Virus record (IMG/VR): IMGVR_UViG_3300042691_008829
Location: 1 to 30,373 of that record
Strand: one strand, 5' to 3'
From: a virus
DNA length: 30,373 nt
The first letter of the stretch is position 1. Each line of letters begins with the position of its first letter. A program made the position numbers and the translations under genes. Of this stretch, positions 11,798-24,121 are shown one piece after another. The notes below the pieces were generated by a model. That model had not been told where the DNA came from. It made no database searches and worked only from the letters and a program-made list of their open reading frames with translations.

Positions 11798-13138
11798 ATG
11801 GATTTTGGAGAAGAGGTATATAATATCGTAAAGTCTTTCAGAGACTTTAATGTAACTGTAAAATCTGCAAATTCTAAAAGCACCACCCTGATTGTAAAAG
11901 GACCAAATAGAGGTCAAATGCAACTCAAGTTAGAAGATGCAATGAGAAAATCTAGAATACCTAATGATAAAATATCAAGAGAAAAAGTAGGTGCATCTTC
12001 ATTTCCAGCTACAGTTGTAAATCTAAAAAATGATAAAATCGTTATCATTTATAAACCAGTCAGAGAGGGTGCTGATAGGGGAGCACTCCAAACAAGGAAT
12101 GTTGAATCTGCTCAGTGTTTGTATTCTGCTCTTGCATTTCATGTTTTGAAGAGAAGTATAAGAGTGGAAGATATTTCTGCCTCAAACTTTGAAAAATGTA
12201 AGAGGTATATTGATGTCGATGCTAGATTTGAAGACATGCTCAATATATCTGAGGATTGGATAAATTCTTCGATGCAAGGTGCGAACATGTTGTTTTCTAG
12301 TATTGATAAAAATATCAATTGGTCATTTCATAGAGGCAGTAGAAACGTTAATATTATTGAATCAAAATTTAAGGAGTTGAATAGAAAAGAAAGACTATTC
12401 AGTAATATTAATAAGTGGAGTCCAGCTGACTTTTATATGATAAGCAATTCAATGAGTGAACCTGATTGGAAATTGATTAAAGATGCAAAATCAATAAAAT
12501 CTTTAAATCAAGTCATGGTTGAATTGATTGCGGACAAAAAACTAATTGGAGTTTCATTGAAAAAAATAACCAGAGTTCCAAAACCATTTAAATATTATAA
12601 TCTTTCTGAGGATAGAAATGCTGATGATATTGAATATGCTGGAACGATAATTTATAAGAAAACTGATAATCCATTGAGTGCTATGGACACATTCACATTA
12701 TGGAAACCTGGTGGAAAATATGAAATACAATGGAGATCAGATTCTGGTGGTCCATCTGGTTGGAAAGGAGAAATACAAGGATCTTCTGCAAATCAAGGTA
12801 AAATATCCTATGGTCCTATGAATAAAATTCTTAAATCATTTAATCTCCCAGAAATACCTAATTACACTAATAGTCCTAAATTAGATTCTGTAGATTTGAT
12901 AGGTGAGATATACGATGATATTCAAAGTATTCAAAAAATGAATATGACTAAGGAAGAGTTTATTTTTCAAGTCAAAAACAAAGATGCTAAATGGAAGTAT
13001 GCTAAATTTACTGGAGTTAAATTTGCAAAGATTTTAGAATCTCAATCAAGTAAAATACGTGATCAAATTGTTCGTGAGATATATTTTTATGCAAATTCTC
13101 AATCTCCAAATTCTGGACCTTATGGTAAGATTGAGTAA
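11798..13138 (+). CDS. Unknown late-region protein, possible nuclease-like core
   Basis: A 446-residue protein I cannot place in a named family. It is rich in Lys/Asn/Ser. Visible blocks are IIYKPVREG (83-91), ESAQCLYSALAF (103-114), KWSPADFYMI (206-215) and LIGVSLKKI (249-257). A PxD motif followed 40-50 residues later by GxSLK is seen in several PD-(D/E)XK restriction-type enzymes, so D211 and K255 could be catalytic; this is only a hypothesis. A Gly/Ser-rich segment (about 300-335) follows. It is the first gene after the tRNAs and opens the late-type block; CTAAATA at 11764-11770 is a weak late-promoter variant. Confidence 0.8.
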   Translation: MDFGEEVYNIVKSFRDFNVTVKSANSKSTTLIVKGPNRGQMQLKLEDAMRKSRIPNDKISREKVGASSFPATVVNLKNDKIVIIYKPVREGADRGALQTRNVESAQCLYSALAFHVLKRSIRVEDISASNFEKCKRYIDVDARFEDMLNISEDWINSSMQGANMLFSSIDKNINWSFHRGSRNVNIIESKFKELNRKERLFSNINKWSPADFYMISNSMSEPDWKLIKDAKSIKSLNQVMVELIADKKLIGVSLKKITRVPKPFKYYNLSEDRNADDIEYAGTIIYKKTDNPLSAMDTFTLWKPGGKYEIQWRSDSGGPSGWKGEIQGSSANQGKISYGPMNKILKSFNLPEIPNYTNSPKLDSVDLIGEIYDDIQSIQKMNMTKEEFIFQVKNKDAKWKYAKFTGVKFAKILESQSSKIRDQIVREIYFYANSQSPNSGPYGKIE

Positions 13139-13139
13139 A

Positions 13140-13364
13140 ATGAATCAACAAATACAAGACATTATTAAATCATTTGAATCATTATCAAAAACTAGAGGTA
13201 AGAGATACAATGATTTTTTGGCTCATGTTTATATGACTTTTGATAAGAAAATCTCATTATGTAAGTCAGATAAGGAAATGAATAAATATAAGAAAATGAG
13301 GAATAGTATCCTCAAATATATTGTTGTAAACGAACGAGCAATAACTACTGAAATCTGTAAGTAA
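13140..13364 (+). CDS. Small unknown protein, 74 aa
   Basis: A 74-residue, lysine-rich, helical protein. I chose ATG 13140, one base after the stop of the preceding gene, over the upstream in-frame start that would lie inside that gene. It includes KSFESLSKTRGKRYNDFLAH and a KEMNKYKKMR helix. Its stop overlaps the start of the nucleotidyltransferase gene (TAATG). It may be an accessory to either neighbour; no family is recognised. Confidence 0.75.
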   Translation: MNQQIQDIIKSFESLSKTRGKRYNDFLAHVYMTFDKKISLCKSDKEMNKYKKMRNSILKYIVVNERAITTEICK

Positions 13365-14617
13365 TGAAAAACTTTTTCCAATTTTTATCTGAGGCGGCTG
13401 CATCTCAACAGGCAGCCAGATTAGGATTAGTTGGTGATGGTCACGGAGGGTGGTACGATAAAAATGGTGAGTTCGTTGCCAAGACTGAAAAGGGACAATT
13501 AAAGTTCTATAACAAACGTCAAAGAATTGGTCAGCAAGATCCTTCACAGTCTGATAAAGAAAAGAGATTATCTCAAAGTACAACTGAACCAGCACCTCAA
13601 CAAGAACCAGTTTCTCAACAACCTGCTCCACAGCAAGAACCACAGGCACAACAACCTGTAGAAATGGTTCCACCAGAAGTTGAGAAAACAAAAGGAACTC
13701 TGACGATTGCTTTTGGACGTTTCAATCCACCCACAACAGGACACGAAAAACTTCTGGATACTGTAGCAAAGTCTTCTGATGACGGAGATTATATTATTGT
13801 ACCTTCTAGAAGTCAGGACAAGAAAAAGAATCCATTAGATCCGGATACAAAGGTTTCTGTGATGAGACAGATGTTTCCACAGCACAGTGAAAGGATTGTA
13901 AACGACACTGCAAATCGCACCATCTTTGATGTACTTAAGAAGGCACACATGGATGGGTATACAAATGTGAGAATCATTGGTGGTGCAGATCGAGTTAAAG
14001 AATTTGAAAAATTGACAAGTGGTTACAATGGTAAACTCTATCAATTTGATAATGTGGAAGTTCGTTCTGCTGGAGAAAGAGATCCGGATTCTGAAGATGA
14101 TGTAACTGGGATGTCTGCATCAAAGCAAAGAAAAGCAGCAGCAGAGGGTGACTATAAAACTTTTCGTAAGGGTGTACCAGCATCGATGAACGAAAAGCAG
14201 GCAAAGGAACTTTATAATACTCTTCGTTCTGCAATGCAAATCAAAGAAGGATGGAGTCTCTGGGAAATTGCACCCAAGTTTGATTGGATTAATCTTCGTG
14301 AGAATTACATTCAGGAAAAAATTTACCAGGTCGGTCAACTGGTTGAAAATTTAAATACTGGATTGGTTGGTCGTATCATTCGTCGTGGAACTAACTATCT
14401 GATTTGTGTTACCGAAGATCACATCATGTTTAAGTCATGGATTAAGGATGTGATGGAAACTAAAAAGTATACAGAGGTTCATATGAGCAGTATTGAGAGA
14501 GTTCCTGGAAAACCAAATACTCTTTCTGGCACGGATGGATATAGAAAATACGTCGAAACAATGGTTCCTGGAAGTAGTTGGGGAAGACAATTCATAAATA
14601 AGTATAGGAAAAAGTAA
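13364..14617 (+). CDS. Nucleotidyltransferase-domain protein with capsid-targeting-like N-terminus
   Basis: A 417-residue multidomain protein. Residues 1-11 (MKNFFQFLSEA) strongly resemble the T4 internal-protein capsid-targeting leader, cut by prohead protease after Glu. A short domain (17-52, LGLVGDGHGGWYDKNGEFV) and a Gln/Pro-rich linker (72-105) follow. Then comes a cytidylyltransferase/NMNAT-type domain (about 110-290) with FGRFNPPTTGH (117-127) and the distal MSASKQR (250-256), matching the T/HxGH and ISSTxxR signatures. The C-terminal 100 residues form another domain (VGQLVENLNTGLVG, then RRGTNYLICV). The family transfers a nucleotidyl group to a phosphorylated acceptor; the acceptor here is unknown. 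It belongs to the late region. Confidence 0.88.
   Translation: MKNFFQFLSEAAASQQAARLGLVGDGHGGWYDKNGEFVAKTEKGQLKFYNKRQRIGQQDPSQSDKEKRLSQSTTEPAPQQEPVSQQPAPQQEPQAQQPVEMVPPEVEKTKGTLTIAFGRFNPPTTGHEKLLDTVAKSSDDGDYIIVPSRSQDKKKNPLDPDTKVSVMRQMFPQHSERIVNDTANRTIFDVLKKAHMDGYTNVRIIGGADRVKEFEKLTSGYNGKLYQFDNVEVRSAGERDPDSEDDVTGMSASKQRKAAAEGDYKTFRKGVPASMNEKQAKELYNTLRSAMQIKEGWSLWEIAPKFDWINLRENYIQEKIYQVGQLVENLNTGLVGRIIRRGTNYLICVTEDHIMFKSWIKDVMETKKYTEVHMSSIERVPGKPNTLSGTDGYRKYVETMVPGSSWGRQFINKYRKK
14593..14600 (+). promoter_or_regulatory. Late promoter motif CATAAATA
   Basis: Matches the T4-type late promoter TATAAATA in seven of eight positions. It lies inside the end of the upstream gene, 35 bases before the ATG at 14635. 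Confidence 0.6.
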
Positions 14618-14634: not shown

Positions 14635-16194
14635 ATGAGTAAAAAAATTTTTGAGGAAACGGGTGGACCTAGACGTGGCCATGCTGCAGGTGCTACTGAC
14701 GTAGAAAAGCAAGCATCTCAACTTGCTTCTGATACAAGATATAAAGTAAAACAATCTATGGGTAAGGGTACAAAGTTAAACCCTGCTCAGGTTTCTAAGG
14801 CATATCTTGCTCAACTGTCGAAGTCTCCTGCACCTCCAGCAGTCAAGGCACTTGCAAAAAAGAAACTCATTGGTGAAGAGTATACAGAAGATATCAAAAA
14901 GTTAGTTGAATCTTCTCTCGTGAATGCTCTTGTCCAGGTATTCTCAGAAGAATCTCACGAAAAGGTCTGGATTGTTGTAACGGATAAGAAGACTGGAAAC
15001 ACATATCGTCGTCGAGCAACACGTGAAAAGATTGCAGAACTTCGTGCAAATCCAAACATTTCACGAGTTGAAATTACATCCTATCATCCTGATGAAGATG
15101 ATGATAAAAAAGGTGAAAAAACTGCAAGAGTAAAGGCAGGTAAGGGATTGAAGAATGATGGAAACCTTGCTAACAATTATCCTCCATATGATAAAGTAAC
15201 TCGTGGTGATGTCATTGCTGGTGCCACAGGCAAAGACCAAATGGGTGGTAAGAAAAAAGTTAAAGAAGAATTCATTGGTGAAGTAAAGCAAAAGAGTGAC
15301 TCAGAAAATAAGAAAATTACTGGAGAGAAGGTAAATAATTACAATGGTAAGGATGCTGTTATTAAAGTATTTCCAAGTCTTGAGGAGCAAATGAAGGATG
15401 AGGTTTCTGCACAACAGAAGACTCAAAAACCACAGCAAAATCAATCTGCTATCAATCAGGTTCTGATGGCAAAGCAAAGAGCAGATATGGCTCAAAGAGA
15501 CTTAGCAATGAAGCAAAAGTCTGCATCGCAAAAAGGTGTAAATTTAACAGCACTCTCCGCATCATATGAACCAGAAGGTGATTCAATTGATGAGAAGATC
15601 ACTGCTAAAACTGAGATGGGATCCGCAATCAAAGATTTCTATGCATCTAAGTCTCCTCAACTAGCAGGAAGAACTAAGGAAGAAAGAAGAAAGGCTGCGA
15701 TTGCTGCGGTATTAACTGCTCGTCGTGGTGGTAAGAAACTTGGTGAAGAGTGTGGGTGTGAAGACGAGAAAGAACCAAAAATGAAAAAGACTGAGGATGG
15801 TGTGGAAGATCCAAGATCAATGCCAACAAAGATTAGTCTTGCTAAGAACAAGTTAAGATCGATGGGTCTTAAAATGTCTTACGAGCCAGAAGGTGAATCT
15901 ATTGATGAACTCAATCGTTTTGAGAAAGAAACAGGAACATCTTCAGGTTCTCTCAACATGCCAAAAGGAAGACCAACTCAAAAAGGTGGTGATACCGATC
16001 CTGCACTAAGATCAGTTAGACAAACCATGCGTAGTATGACTGGTAAACCTGCTGGACAACGTAAAAAAGTTCCTGGTAAGAAGCCACCTACTGCGGGACA
16101 ATATGGTGCTCCAGAATCTCCTGCACAAAAAGTAGCAAAACGTCGTGCTGCTGCTCAAAGGGCACAGGACAATATGAGTTCAAGATTTGATTGA
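14635..16194 (+). CDS. Probable virion structural protein with YEPEG(D/E)SIDE repeats
   Basis: A 519-residue, low-complexity, Lys/Glu/Gln/Ala-rich protein typical of cyanomyovirus virion-associated proteins. A small globular-looking domain spans about 108-150 (VWIVVTDKKTGNTYRRRATR onwards). The decapeptide YEPEG(D/E)SIDE occurs at 311-320 and 416-425, each followed by a charged segment. Residues 331-368 (IKDFYASKSPQLAGRTKEER and on) form another module. The basic C-terminus (GKPAGQRKKVPGKKPP) could bind DNA. The I-D-E end of each repeat fits the T4 prohead protease consensus (I/L)xE, so the protein may be processed during head maturation. No catalytic domain is apparent. Confidence 0.82.
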   Translation: MSKKIFEETGGPRRGHAAGATDVEKQASQLASDTRYKVKQSMGKGTKLNPAQVSKAYLAQLSKSPAPPAVKALAKKKLIGEEYTEDIKKLVESSLVNALVQVFSEESHEKVWIVVTDKKTGNTYRRRATREKIAELRANPNISRVEITSYHPDEDDDKKGEKTARVKAGKGLKNDGNLANNYPPYDKVTRGDVIAGATGKDQMGGKKKVKEEFIGEVKQKSDSENKKITGEKVNNYNGKDAVIKVFPSLEEQMKDEVSAQQKTQKPQQNQSAINQVLMAKQRADMAQRDLAMKQKSASQKGVNLTALSASYEPEGDSIDEKITAKTEMGSAIKDFYASKSPQLAGRTKEERRKAAIAAVLTARRGGKKLGEECGCEDEKEPKMKKTEDGVEDPRSMPTKISLAKNKLRSMGLKMSYEPEGESIDELNRFEKETGTSSGSLNMPKGRPTQKGGDTDPALRSVRQTMRSMTGKPAGQRKKVPGKKPPTAGQYGAPESPAQKVAKRRAAAQRAQDNMSSRFD

Positions 16195-16624: not shown

Positions 16625-17389
16625 ATGTCTCTTTGGGGAAGAAACGATAATAGAGGTTCAGGAGGAACAGTAAGCCTGAACTATTCAACCCGAACTGTTA
16701 CTGGATCTGGAACAACCTTTGGGCAGGTTGGAGCGGCTGCAACTGGTGATATAATTCGTTTTGGAATTAGAGGTGCCGGTGGAACCTATTTTGGTGATGC
16801 AGTAATTGTAGGCATTGCAAGCACAACTGTATTGACCATTGGTTCAACAATGGGACTGAGTGGTGCAGCAATTGCTGCGACGAGTTTCTATATTAGTGAA
16901 CTGCCAATCTACACCGTTGGTGATTATAGTTATAGCAACAAACTCGATTCTGCACCAACTCTTAAAAATTTTGGCATTACGGGAACCGCAACCACAAATG
17001 CAAACGTTGGAGTTCTTACCGTTTCTGTAGTTCCACCATCTGGATTAGTGGTGGGAGATACATTATTAAATAATGGTAATGACATTGTGATTTCCACAAT
17101 TGGAACTTCTACGATTACTTTAGGTTCAACAATTTCTGCTGGTATTGCTACTGGTGCTACTCTCACCTTTAAGAGATTTACTGCAGGATATGATAAGCAA
17201 GTTTATGGCATTTCAACTTCTGCTACCAATGTTCCAGCAGCATATAGAGGATTTACTCATCAAGGTTGGGTAGGAGTTACAACATATAAAGATACTCATG
17301 GAAATCTAAGAGTTAAGAGTGAAGTTCTTGTAGCAATGTCTGGTATTACAACTGGATCTGATGGCATTTTATATCCAACACCAAGATAA
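16625..17389 (+). CDS. Beta-rich virion structural protein
   Basis: A 254-residue Gly/Thr/Ser/Val-rich protein beginning SLWGRNDNRGSGGTVSLNYS. It has two similar beta modules, each built on T-V-T-G-S-G-T-T-F / G-D-I-I-R-F and then G-D-T-L-L-N / L-T-F-K-type strands, with repeated IG(S/T)T turns. The C-terminal part (residues about 190-254, KQVYGISTSA then HQGWVGVTTYKD) looks like a conserved cap. This composition suits a neck, sheath-associated or fibre-type virion protein. As I recall, close relatives in cyanophages are annotated only as structural. It has a perfect late promoter and its own terminator upstream, consistent with high late expression. Confidence 0.75.
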   Translation: MSLWGRNDNRGSGGTVSLNYSTRTVTGSGTTFGQVGAAATGDIIRFGIRGAGGTYFGDAVIVGIASTTVLTIGSTMGLSGAAIAATSFYISELPIYTVGDYSYSNKLDSAPTLKNFGITGTATTNANVGVLTVSVVPPSGLVVGDTLLNNGNDIVISTIGTSTITLGSTISAGIATGATLTFKRFTAGYDKQVYGISTSATNVPAAYRGFTHQGWVGVTTYKDTHGNLRVKSEVLVAMSGITTGSDGILYPTPR

Positions 17390-22921: not shown

Positions 22922-24121
22922 ATGTTATCGTCTGATTTAAGAAGTGTTTACGAATCTTATCAAAACATTTATGAAGAGGGAGATGGAATCTCCTGTGAAA
23001 TGATTGAAGAAATTGTAGAAGAACTCATCGAAGAGTGTGTAGAGTATGGGTATACCCTTGATGAGGCAGCAGATACTGTAGAAGAGGCAGCAACCGAGTA
23101 TCTGATGGAACTCAATCCTTATGCTCCTGCTGGATCTAAGGAAGCAAGAGCATATCAAAAGTCTACTACTTCTACCAAACGTGGAGAAGCACGTAAGGCA
23201 GCAGTAAAGGGTGCTGTAGAACGTGTGAAAGCAAAGGCAAAGGGTGCTAAGGCAGCTGCTGGAATCGCAGGTTCAATTGCTAAGGATGAGGCAAGAAGAG
23301 CAGGACGTGCTGCCAAGCAGGCAGTTACCAGCACGGCCCAGAAGACGAAGGAGAAGGTCAAGAGTGGTGTCAAGGGTCTTCTAGGAAAAGGTCTCCGTGC
23401 TGCTGCTGGTGCTGCTGGATCAGTCGCACAGAAGGCACGTAAGGCAGGTGCTGCTGCTGGCAGAGCTGCTGAGAGGCTTGGTGAAGAGGTTATTGATGAA
23501 GCATACAAAGAACTTCCTACTGATAAAATGAGAGGAAAGGTTATTCAACATGCTGCTTCTGGTACAAAGAGAGCATTTCTGTCAAAACTTAAAGGACAAA
23601 AAGGAACCACAGCAGGTAATGTTGAAGATGCAAAAGCAATGAAATCTTTGAATAAGGCAAAAAAAATTCAAGGTGAAATTAAAAACAGAGAACAAATGGG
23701 ATCAGATTTTTATCAGGGTTCCAGAGAAGGACGTGCTCTTGCCAATAAAAGACGAGGTAGAATGAAAGAGGGTTATGATATTTTTGATGTAATCCTTGAG
23801 CATTTGGTTGCCGAAGGTTATGCAGATACTAATGAGAATGCTCTCGTTATCATGGCAAACATGAGCGAAGAGTGGAGAGAAGAAATTCTTGAAGGTTCTT
23901 ACGAAGATAGAATTGCTGCTAACAACAAAAAATACGATAGAAATCGCCAAAGAGCAGCACAAAGAGCAGCAGCAAGAAATGCCGCTAGAGATGCTGGTAA
24001 GACTGGAGCAGTGCCTGGGGTTGGTTATGTAACTCCTAGACGTGAAAGTGAGACTTATAGAGATTCTTCTGGTACTGAAAGACATAAATCTGGTGCTAAA
24101 ATGCCAAAAAATGATAAGTAA
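22922..24121 (+). CDS. Histone-like Lys/Ala-rich virion-type protein
   Basis: A 399-residue modular protein. Residues 26-62 are an acidic helical module (MIEEIVEELIEECVEYGYTL onwards). Residues 76-186 are Lys/Ala/Gly/Arg-rich and resemble eukaryotic H1 tails, likely DNA-binding. EEVIDEAYKEL (188-198) contains an (I/L/V)xE-type protease site. Residues 285-323 (IFDVILEHLVAEGYADT through MSEEWREEIL) form a second acidic module of a kind I recall from marine T4-like structural proteins. The C-terminus is again Arg/Ala-rich. The perfect late promoter suggests a late, packaged protein. No enzyme domain is seen. Codon use in the basic region is locally GC-richer than around it. Confidence 0.78.
   Translation: MLSSDLRSVYESYQNIYEEGDGISCEMIEEIVEELIEECVEYGYTLDEAADTVEEAATEYLMELNPYAPAGSKEARAYQKSTTSTKRGEARKAAVKGAVERVKAKAKGAKAAAGIAGSIAKDEARRAGRAAKQAVTSTAQKTKEKVKSGVKGLLGKGLRAAAGAAGSVAQKARKAGAAAGRAAERLGEEVIDEAYKELPTDKMRGKVIQHAASGTKRAFLSKLKGQKGTTAGNVEDAKAMKSLNKAKKIQGEIKNREQMGSDFYQGSREGRALANKRRGRMKEGYDIFDVILEHLVAEGYADTNENALVIMANMSEEWREEILEGSYEDRIAANNKKYDRNRQRAAQRAAARNAARDAGKTGAVPGVGYVTPRRESETYRDSSGTERHKSGAKMPKNDK

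Follow-up and report, generated by a model that had tools for sequence, protein, structure and literature searches.

A putative T4-type capsid-targeting leader on an NMNAT-like nucleotidyltransferase of T4-like cyanophages and on unrelated virion proteins

The internal proteins IPII and IPIII of phage T4 are known tagged proteins. Together with IPI (and Alt), they carry a 10-residue N-terminal leader in which positions 4, 7, 8 and 10 are conserved and an (I/L)xE site is present, and a range of cargo travels behind this one tag in a phage that has a gp21-type protease. The first ten residues of IPIII are sufficient for packaging, with residues 4 and 7 governing targeting and residues 8 and 10 governing processing, and gp21 cleaves after L/I-x-E (PMC9026906). 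The cyanophage protein described here resembles the T4 internal proteins in its leader with the same conserved positions, in its (I/L)xE site, in the gp21-type protease encoded by related phages and in the range of cargo behind one tag. It differs in its cargo, a ~45-kDa NMNAT-fold enzyme rather than a small inhibitor, in a second module of ~45 aa that is frequently found behind the leader and that kinase and HNH-like cargo also have, and in that its cleavage and injection are proposed from sequence. In phage P1, an N-terminal signal likewise sends a non-structural protein, DarB, into the head, although that signal is a different one (the first 30 residues suffice) and the cargo is unrelated (PMC9024508).

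Proteins of the same family as ours, described as NMNAT-like or cytidylyltransferase (T4-GC190), have already been found by mass spectrometry (MS) in purified virions of S-SM1 (Sullivan et al. 2010, PMC3037559) and in virions of S-SCSM1 (PMC9602691), S-SZBM1 (PMC9146016) and S-CREM2 (PMC10665884). In the accessible text of these four reports, no leader or capsid tag is mentioned and the choice between packaging and carry-over is left open. T4-GC190 was core to all 16 T4-like cyanophages in a 2010 comparison.

The nucleotidyltransferase gene and its surroundings

The window, the whole 30,373-nt stretch that we analyzed, covers 30 kb of a T4-like cyanophage genome and has the gene order gp43, uvsX, gp41, mazG, ..., gp61, nrdA, nrdB, as named by comparison with P-SSM2; genes for its own gp21, gp22 and gp23 are absent from this fragment. 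An open reading frame at 13364-14617 on the plus strand, whose coordinates and start we confirmed, encodes a 417-aa protein with the N-terminus MKNFFQFLSE|AA. Sequence comparison identifies it as orthologous to T4-GC190, a core gene of cyanophages named "cytidyltransferase" (61% identity to the P-SSM2 protein), and relatives occur in 557 phage records. Its ATG overlaps the stop codon of the preceding ORF (TAATG). Because almost every relative has stop codons in the frame 5' of this Met, the protein does begin with the leader.

The leader (residues 1-10, 13364-13393), with predicted cleavage after E10, is followed by the ~45-aa module (QQAARLGLVGDGHGGWYDKNGEFVAKTEKGQLKFYNKRQ; 13397-13531) and by a Q/P/E-rich low-complexity linker (13532-13690) that varies in length among aligned homologues; AlphaFold2 pLDDT is <50 over residues 50-61 and 71-100. 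The nucleotidyltransferase (NTase) domain spans residues 110-292 (13691-14239), and a C-terminal beta-rich domain (VGQLVENLNTGLVGRIIRRGTNYLICVTEDHIMFKSWIKDV; 14291-14473), also found in other phage proteins, matches PHROGs 4808, 22379 and 455.

Several genes around the NTase gene correspond to virion proteins of S-SCSM1. The gene at 11798-13138 (plus strand, PHROG 1462) is orthologous to SSCSM1_90 (34% identity, E=8e-59), which is annotated as a virion protein, and the gene at 16625-17389 also has an S-SCSM1 orthologue that is a virion protein. Between them, the Lys/Glu-rich product of 14635-16194 (plus strand) is the positional counterpart of the virion protein SSCSM1_92, with a local match at E=4e-4, and contains nine (I/L)xE sites vs. 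3.7 expected. Further along, 22922-24121 encodes a 399-aa Lys/Ala-rich protein with 11 (I/L)xE sites vs. 3.8 expected, a number reached in 0 of 2,000 shuffles; this protein may belong to the head core and be cleaved at several sites.

Conservation of the leader and its match to T4

The first-pass annotation had likened MKNFFQFLSEA to a T4-type capsid-targeting leader, and comparison of homologues strongly supports the likeness. We assembled 128 distinct homologues through patterns outside the leader or through the NTase domain alone, and took per-position conservation from this unfiltered set rather than from a leader-filtered one. The N-terminus fit M[KR]x[FYL]xx[FYL][ILVMF]xE in 127 of the 128. 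Residues 2, 4, 7, 8 and 10 were conserved (K2 and F7 in all 128, F4 in 125 with L in the other three, L or I at position 8 in 122, E10 in 127) and residues 3, 5, 6 and 9 were variable, at least ten residue types occurring at position 9. Positions 4, 7, 8 and 10 are the functional positions of the T4 IPIII tag, and L-S-E-A, as had been pointed out, fits the (I/L)xE rule. Within the leader-filtered set, the conserved residues were encoded by several synonymous codons. We also viewed two homologue clades separately, the second of which was retrieved with a leader-bearing query.

Across six phage genomes, ~10 ORFs carried [FYL]xx[FY][IL]xE[ASTGN] starting exactly at residue 4, vs. ~0.1 expected from the motif's frequency inside ORFs, about half of the ~10 being the NTase itself. 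A slightly looser expression applied to the T4 genome matched IPII, IPIII and gp61.1. The last is a 54-aa protein (NC_000866, 18966-19130, minus strand) with the capsid-tag-like start MKTFKEFIKED, and its gene, like that of the cyanophage NTase, is flanked by gp41 and gp61; judged by this start, gp61.1 could be an unrecognized T4 internal protein.

The leader motif is the same as the string found, in related cyanophages, at the probable maturation site in the N-terminal region of the major capsid protein. The presumed sites, those of the cyanophages being assigned by comparison, are RNFLSE|AP in P-SSM2, REFLSE|AP in S-SKS1, ILNE|T in Syn33, ILTE|T in S-RIM2, LLTE|AP in S-CREM2 and SFLTE|AE in T4. 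A gp21-family protease is encoded by Syn33, S-RIM2, P-SSM2, S-SKS1 and S-CREM2. Separately, we noticed that three small virion proteins, the product of Syn33 151110-151667 (T4-GC426), SSCSM1_97 and S-CREM2 gp160, contain GFTGxxxxxGPxAGYDP, a copy of the presumed mature gp23 N-terminal arm (71% over 21 aa for the Syn33 match).

Virion proteins that carry the leader

The first-pass annotation had also proposed that the NTase is packaged. The phage of the window is uncultured, and strong support comes from the published MS of the four orthologues, as far as those reports are accessible: FxxF(L/I)xE|A is present in all four, whose N-termini are MKKFSAFLNEA in S-SM1, MKSFLQFLKEA in S-SCSM1, MKNFSSFLTEA in S-CREM2 and, shorter by one residue, MRFRQFIIEA in S-SZBM1. 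The nearest virion-proven relative, SSCSM1_91, is ~49.6% identical to the window protein from end to end, including leader and module.

Two other explanations of these detections have to be weighed. The NTase might be one of the phage's soluble early or middle enzymes and co-purify with the particles, its leader being an ordinary amphipathic helix with no role in packaging. The gene does lie among replication and metabolism genes, some homologues have no leader, and the S-CREM2 authors, in the text available, allow for carry-over through CsCl purification and leave contamination open (PMC10665884). However, the detections come from four phages and different groups, with lists that, to the extent available, include head, tail and prohead-protease proteins, and the accessible S-CREM2 list is without polymerase, recombinase, ribonucleotide reductase and single-stranded DNA-binding protein. 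The leader residues, moreover, coincide with the functional positions of the T4 tag and with the capsid maturation site, and the leader recurs on unrelated virion proteins. We consider co-purification improbable.

Alternatively, the NTase could be a morphogenetic (core) protein whose catalytic domain is only a bulky filler or scaffold part and not an injected enzyme. The few peptides reported, two to three in S-SZBM1 (PMC9146016) and S-CREM2 (PMC10665884) according to the accessible data, suggest a low copy number; the neighbors are head or virion proteins, and prohead protease and scaffold also stay in virions. Yet the catalytic motifs are invariant in diverse homologues and shared with leaderless jumbo-phage enzymes, which argues for a selected activity and leaves the filler explanation with a small probability, of about the order we give to co-purification or slightly lower.

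When we searched with the N-terminus by tblastn, leader and module were also found on Bud32/APH-like kinases and on a family of HNH-like proteins of 800-970 aa (PHROG 3561). The HNH assignment is based on a visual motif and on depositors' annotation, Pfam and NCBIfam giving no support for the family, and an extra scan of viral contigs returned a single locus for it. We then applied to S-CREM2 an anchored leader pattern that had been set beforehand on the NTase and the T4 internal proteins. It picked four of 219 proteins (gp6, gp13, gp14 and gp154), all four of which appear among the published virion proteins (P=0.0029; P=3.5e-4 when the 24 known structural proteins are left out). When allowed at any position within residues 1-30, the loose motif was too noisy in S-CREM2 (P 0.055-0.093), and only the anchored form is specific. 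The HNH-like gp12, another of the listed virion proteins, carries the motif at a more internal position (FASFMAEA) and also has the module. A reading of gp6 as a SAM hydrolase found no support in NCBIfam.

In L253, an inserted gene separates the NTase gene from the gene for its C-terminal domain, the two being 1.7 kb apart; both begin with the leader, and one also has the module. In S-N03 and S-CREM2, the leader is joined straight to the NTase and the module is missing, and the leader is thus the constant part. Together, the S-CREM2 list and these split genes favor packaging over contamination. The 188-aa NTase of P-HM1 has no leader and the jumbo-phage homologues are leaderless stand-alone enzymes, so the NTase can also act without being packaged.

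Leaders were also seen on further proteins: MKSFKQFLEEA, MKSLSQFIIET and MKSYNEFISES begin the products of P-SSM2 100269-100529 and 169737-171458 and of Syn33 99396-99734 (T4-GC1019, PHROG 1742), which we regard by their N-termini as candidates for other internal proteins. Outside the cyanophages, the Methylophilales phage Melnitz EXVC044M (MZ577097) has leader-like N-termini at 82-1131, 12203-13288 and 13272-14528; proteins with such starts include a RimK-like ATP-grasp protein (MTQKFSQFITEEP), a 361-aa protein (MQGFKTFLSEAKV) and a DUF6267-like protein (FSKYITEDKGG).

The enzyme, its possible acceptor and a model for delivery

The first-pass annotation had read the NTase as an NMNAT-type T/HxGH transferase. 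The NMNAT/PPAT fold with its (H/T)xGH and SxxxxR motifs is present, as judged by the predicted structure and the alignment. Pfam CTP_transf_like (PF01467) matched residues 115-216 (E=3.5e-7), PHROG 395 also covers the domain, and AlphaFold2 gave pLDDT ~76-91 over most blocks and 53 over one. The sequences FGRFNPPTTGH (117-127) and GMSASKQR (249-256) are both conserved. The catalytic TxGH (T124-T-G-H127; 13733-13744) is invariant except at x in 34 aligned homologues, and HxGH takes its place in S-CREM2, S-SZBM1 and S-N03. MSASKQR (14111-14131), in which M250, S251, A252, S253 and R256 are invariant, is the counterpart of the NMNAT/PPAT phosphate-binding motif (S/T)xxxxR. All of the top 50 Foldseek hits were NadD, NadM, NMNAT or CoaD, with no cytidylyltransferase structure among them, and the name "cytidyltransferase" probably stems from the Pfam family name only. 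A sequence search of the PDB with the NTase returned no match at E<=1.

Within this fold, the best (weak) NCBIfam matches were to NadR and NadD, above CoaD. They did not, however, reach the curated NMNAT cut-offs (TIGR01526, 23.6 bits against 341; TIGR00482, 22.0 against 112), so we class the protein as NMNAT-like only, and not as an NMNAT. We tentatively take NMN or NaMN as the likeliest acceptor on the strength of these sequence and model comparisons.

It is also possible, if somewhat doubtful, that the packaged and cleaved cargo is a CoaD-like or other adenylyl- or cytidylyltransferase, which might act on the ends of nucleic acids or proteins together with a ligase-like DUF6267 protein. Foldseek mixes NadD and NadM with CoaD, the highest TM-scores to target (0.74) belong to PPAT, and TxGH is as in PPAT; the order of the NCBIfam matches speaks against this assignment. 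Because the NTase gene follows DUF6267 (T4-GC71) in many cyanophages, and because the first half of PHROG 455 aligns with DUF6267 and its second half with the NTase, as in a fusion, DUF6267 is a possible partner. By eye, its KWDGAPA and EGFV motifs can be read as ligase-like. However, neither the window nor the P-SSM2 neighborhood showed a DUF6267 gene.

Returning to the NMNAT-like reading, a role in rebuilding NAD+ against host defenses, as the first-pass annotation had suggested and as had been published as speculation (PMC9602691, PMC10665884 in their accessible text), is possible but found no support in our searches. An NMNAT-type step as in the NAD+ reconstitution systems NARP1 and NARP2 is imaginable for the NTase, but a NAMPT/NAPRTase partner gene was found in none of 10 cyanophage genomes by a search whose control was positive in six of 14 known genomes. 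To our knowledge, the NARP systems are not packaged in virions. PADLOC gave no match. We rejected as a pathway clue the "NAD synthetase" encoded near the NTase in Syn33, the sole annotation of this kind that we came across, which is a SegE-type GIY-YIG endonuclease: the RefSeq name of Syn33_201 and S-SM1_208 (T4-GC213) is a misannotation, Syn33_201 matching the GIY-YIG Pfam family at E=8e-51.

We propose that the first ten residues would bind the prohead core and bring the enzyme into the prohead, that a gp21-type protease would then cleave after Glu10, that the mature enzyme would be kept with the DNA in the head (others have seen its orthologues in virions), and that it would enter the cell along with the genome. 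Of these steps, we hold head targeting by the leader to be very probable, cleavage likely, and injection fairly likely. In the weakest step, the cargo would be an adenylyltransferase-like enzyme with an NMNAT/PPAT fold; NMN/NaMN adenylyltransferase is its likeliest activity, which would affect the host's cofactor pools as infection begins. The explanation as a whole, a packaged internal head protein that is cut and injected and is NMNAT-like, appears to us a good one with a likelihood similar to that of cleavage; its packaging part is well supported by sequence together with the published proteomics of relatives. The same leader, often with the ~45-aa module, may deliver a wider set that includes Bud32/APH-like kinases, HNH-like proteins and S-CREM2 gp6.

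Virion presence of the orthologues and the NAD idea are already known, from the accessible parts of the published reports. Three points appear to be new: that the tag exists, that it matches the residues defined in T4, and that unrelated virion proteins use it again together with a second module. We found no earlier statement of a cyanophage capsid-targeting tag in the open-licence literature. Virion proteomics, in the text available, had repeatedly seen the NTase and kinases in particles without explaining their entry, for which a head tag offers a mechanism and predicts a mature NTase N-terminus at residue 11. The same tag on unrelated enzymes in cyanophage particles probably means that a small enzyme kit is carried into the host. 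We somewhat favor a broader picture of modular effector delivery in T4-like cyanophages, in which a ten-residue head tag, often with the ~45-aa module, would be exchanged between proteins of unrelated kinds, among them the NMNAT-like transferase, a Bud32/APH-like kinase and an HNH-like protein. After packaging and trimming by the prohead protease, these would be injected, so that the host is reprogrammed before transcription starts. The leader would then serve as a sequence rule by which to list virion-delivered proteins across uncultured marine phages.
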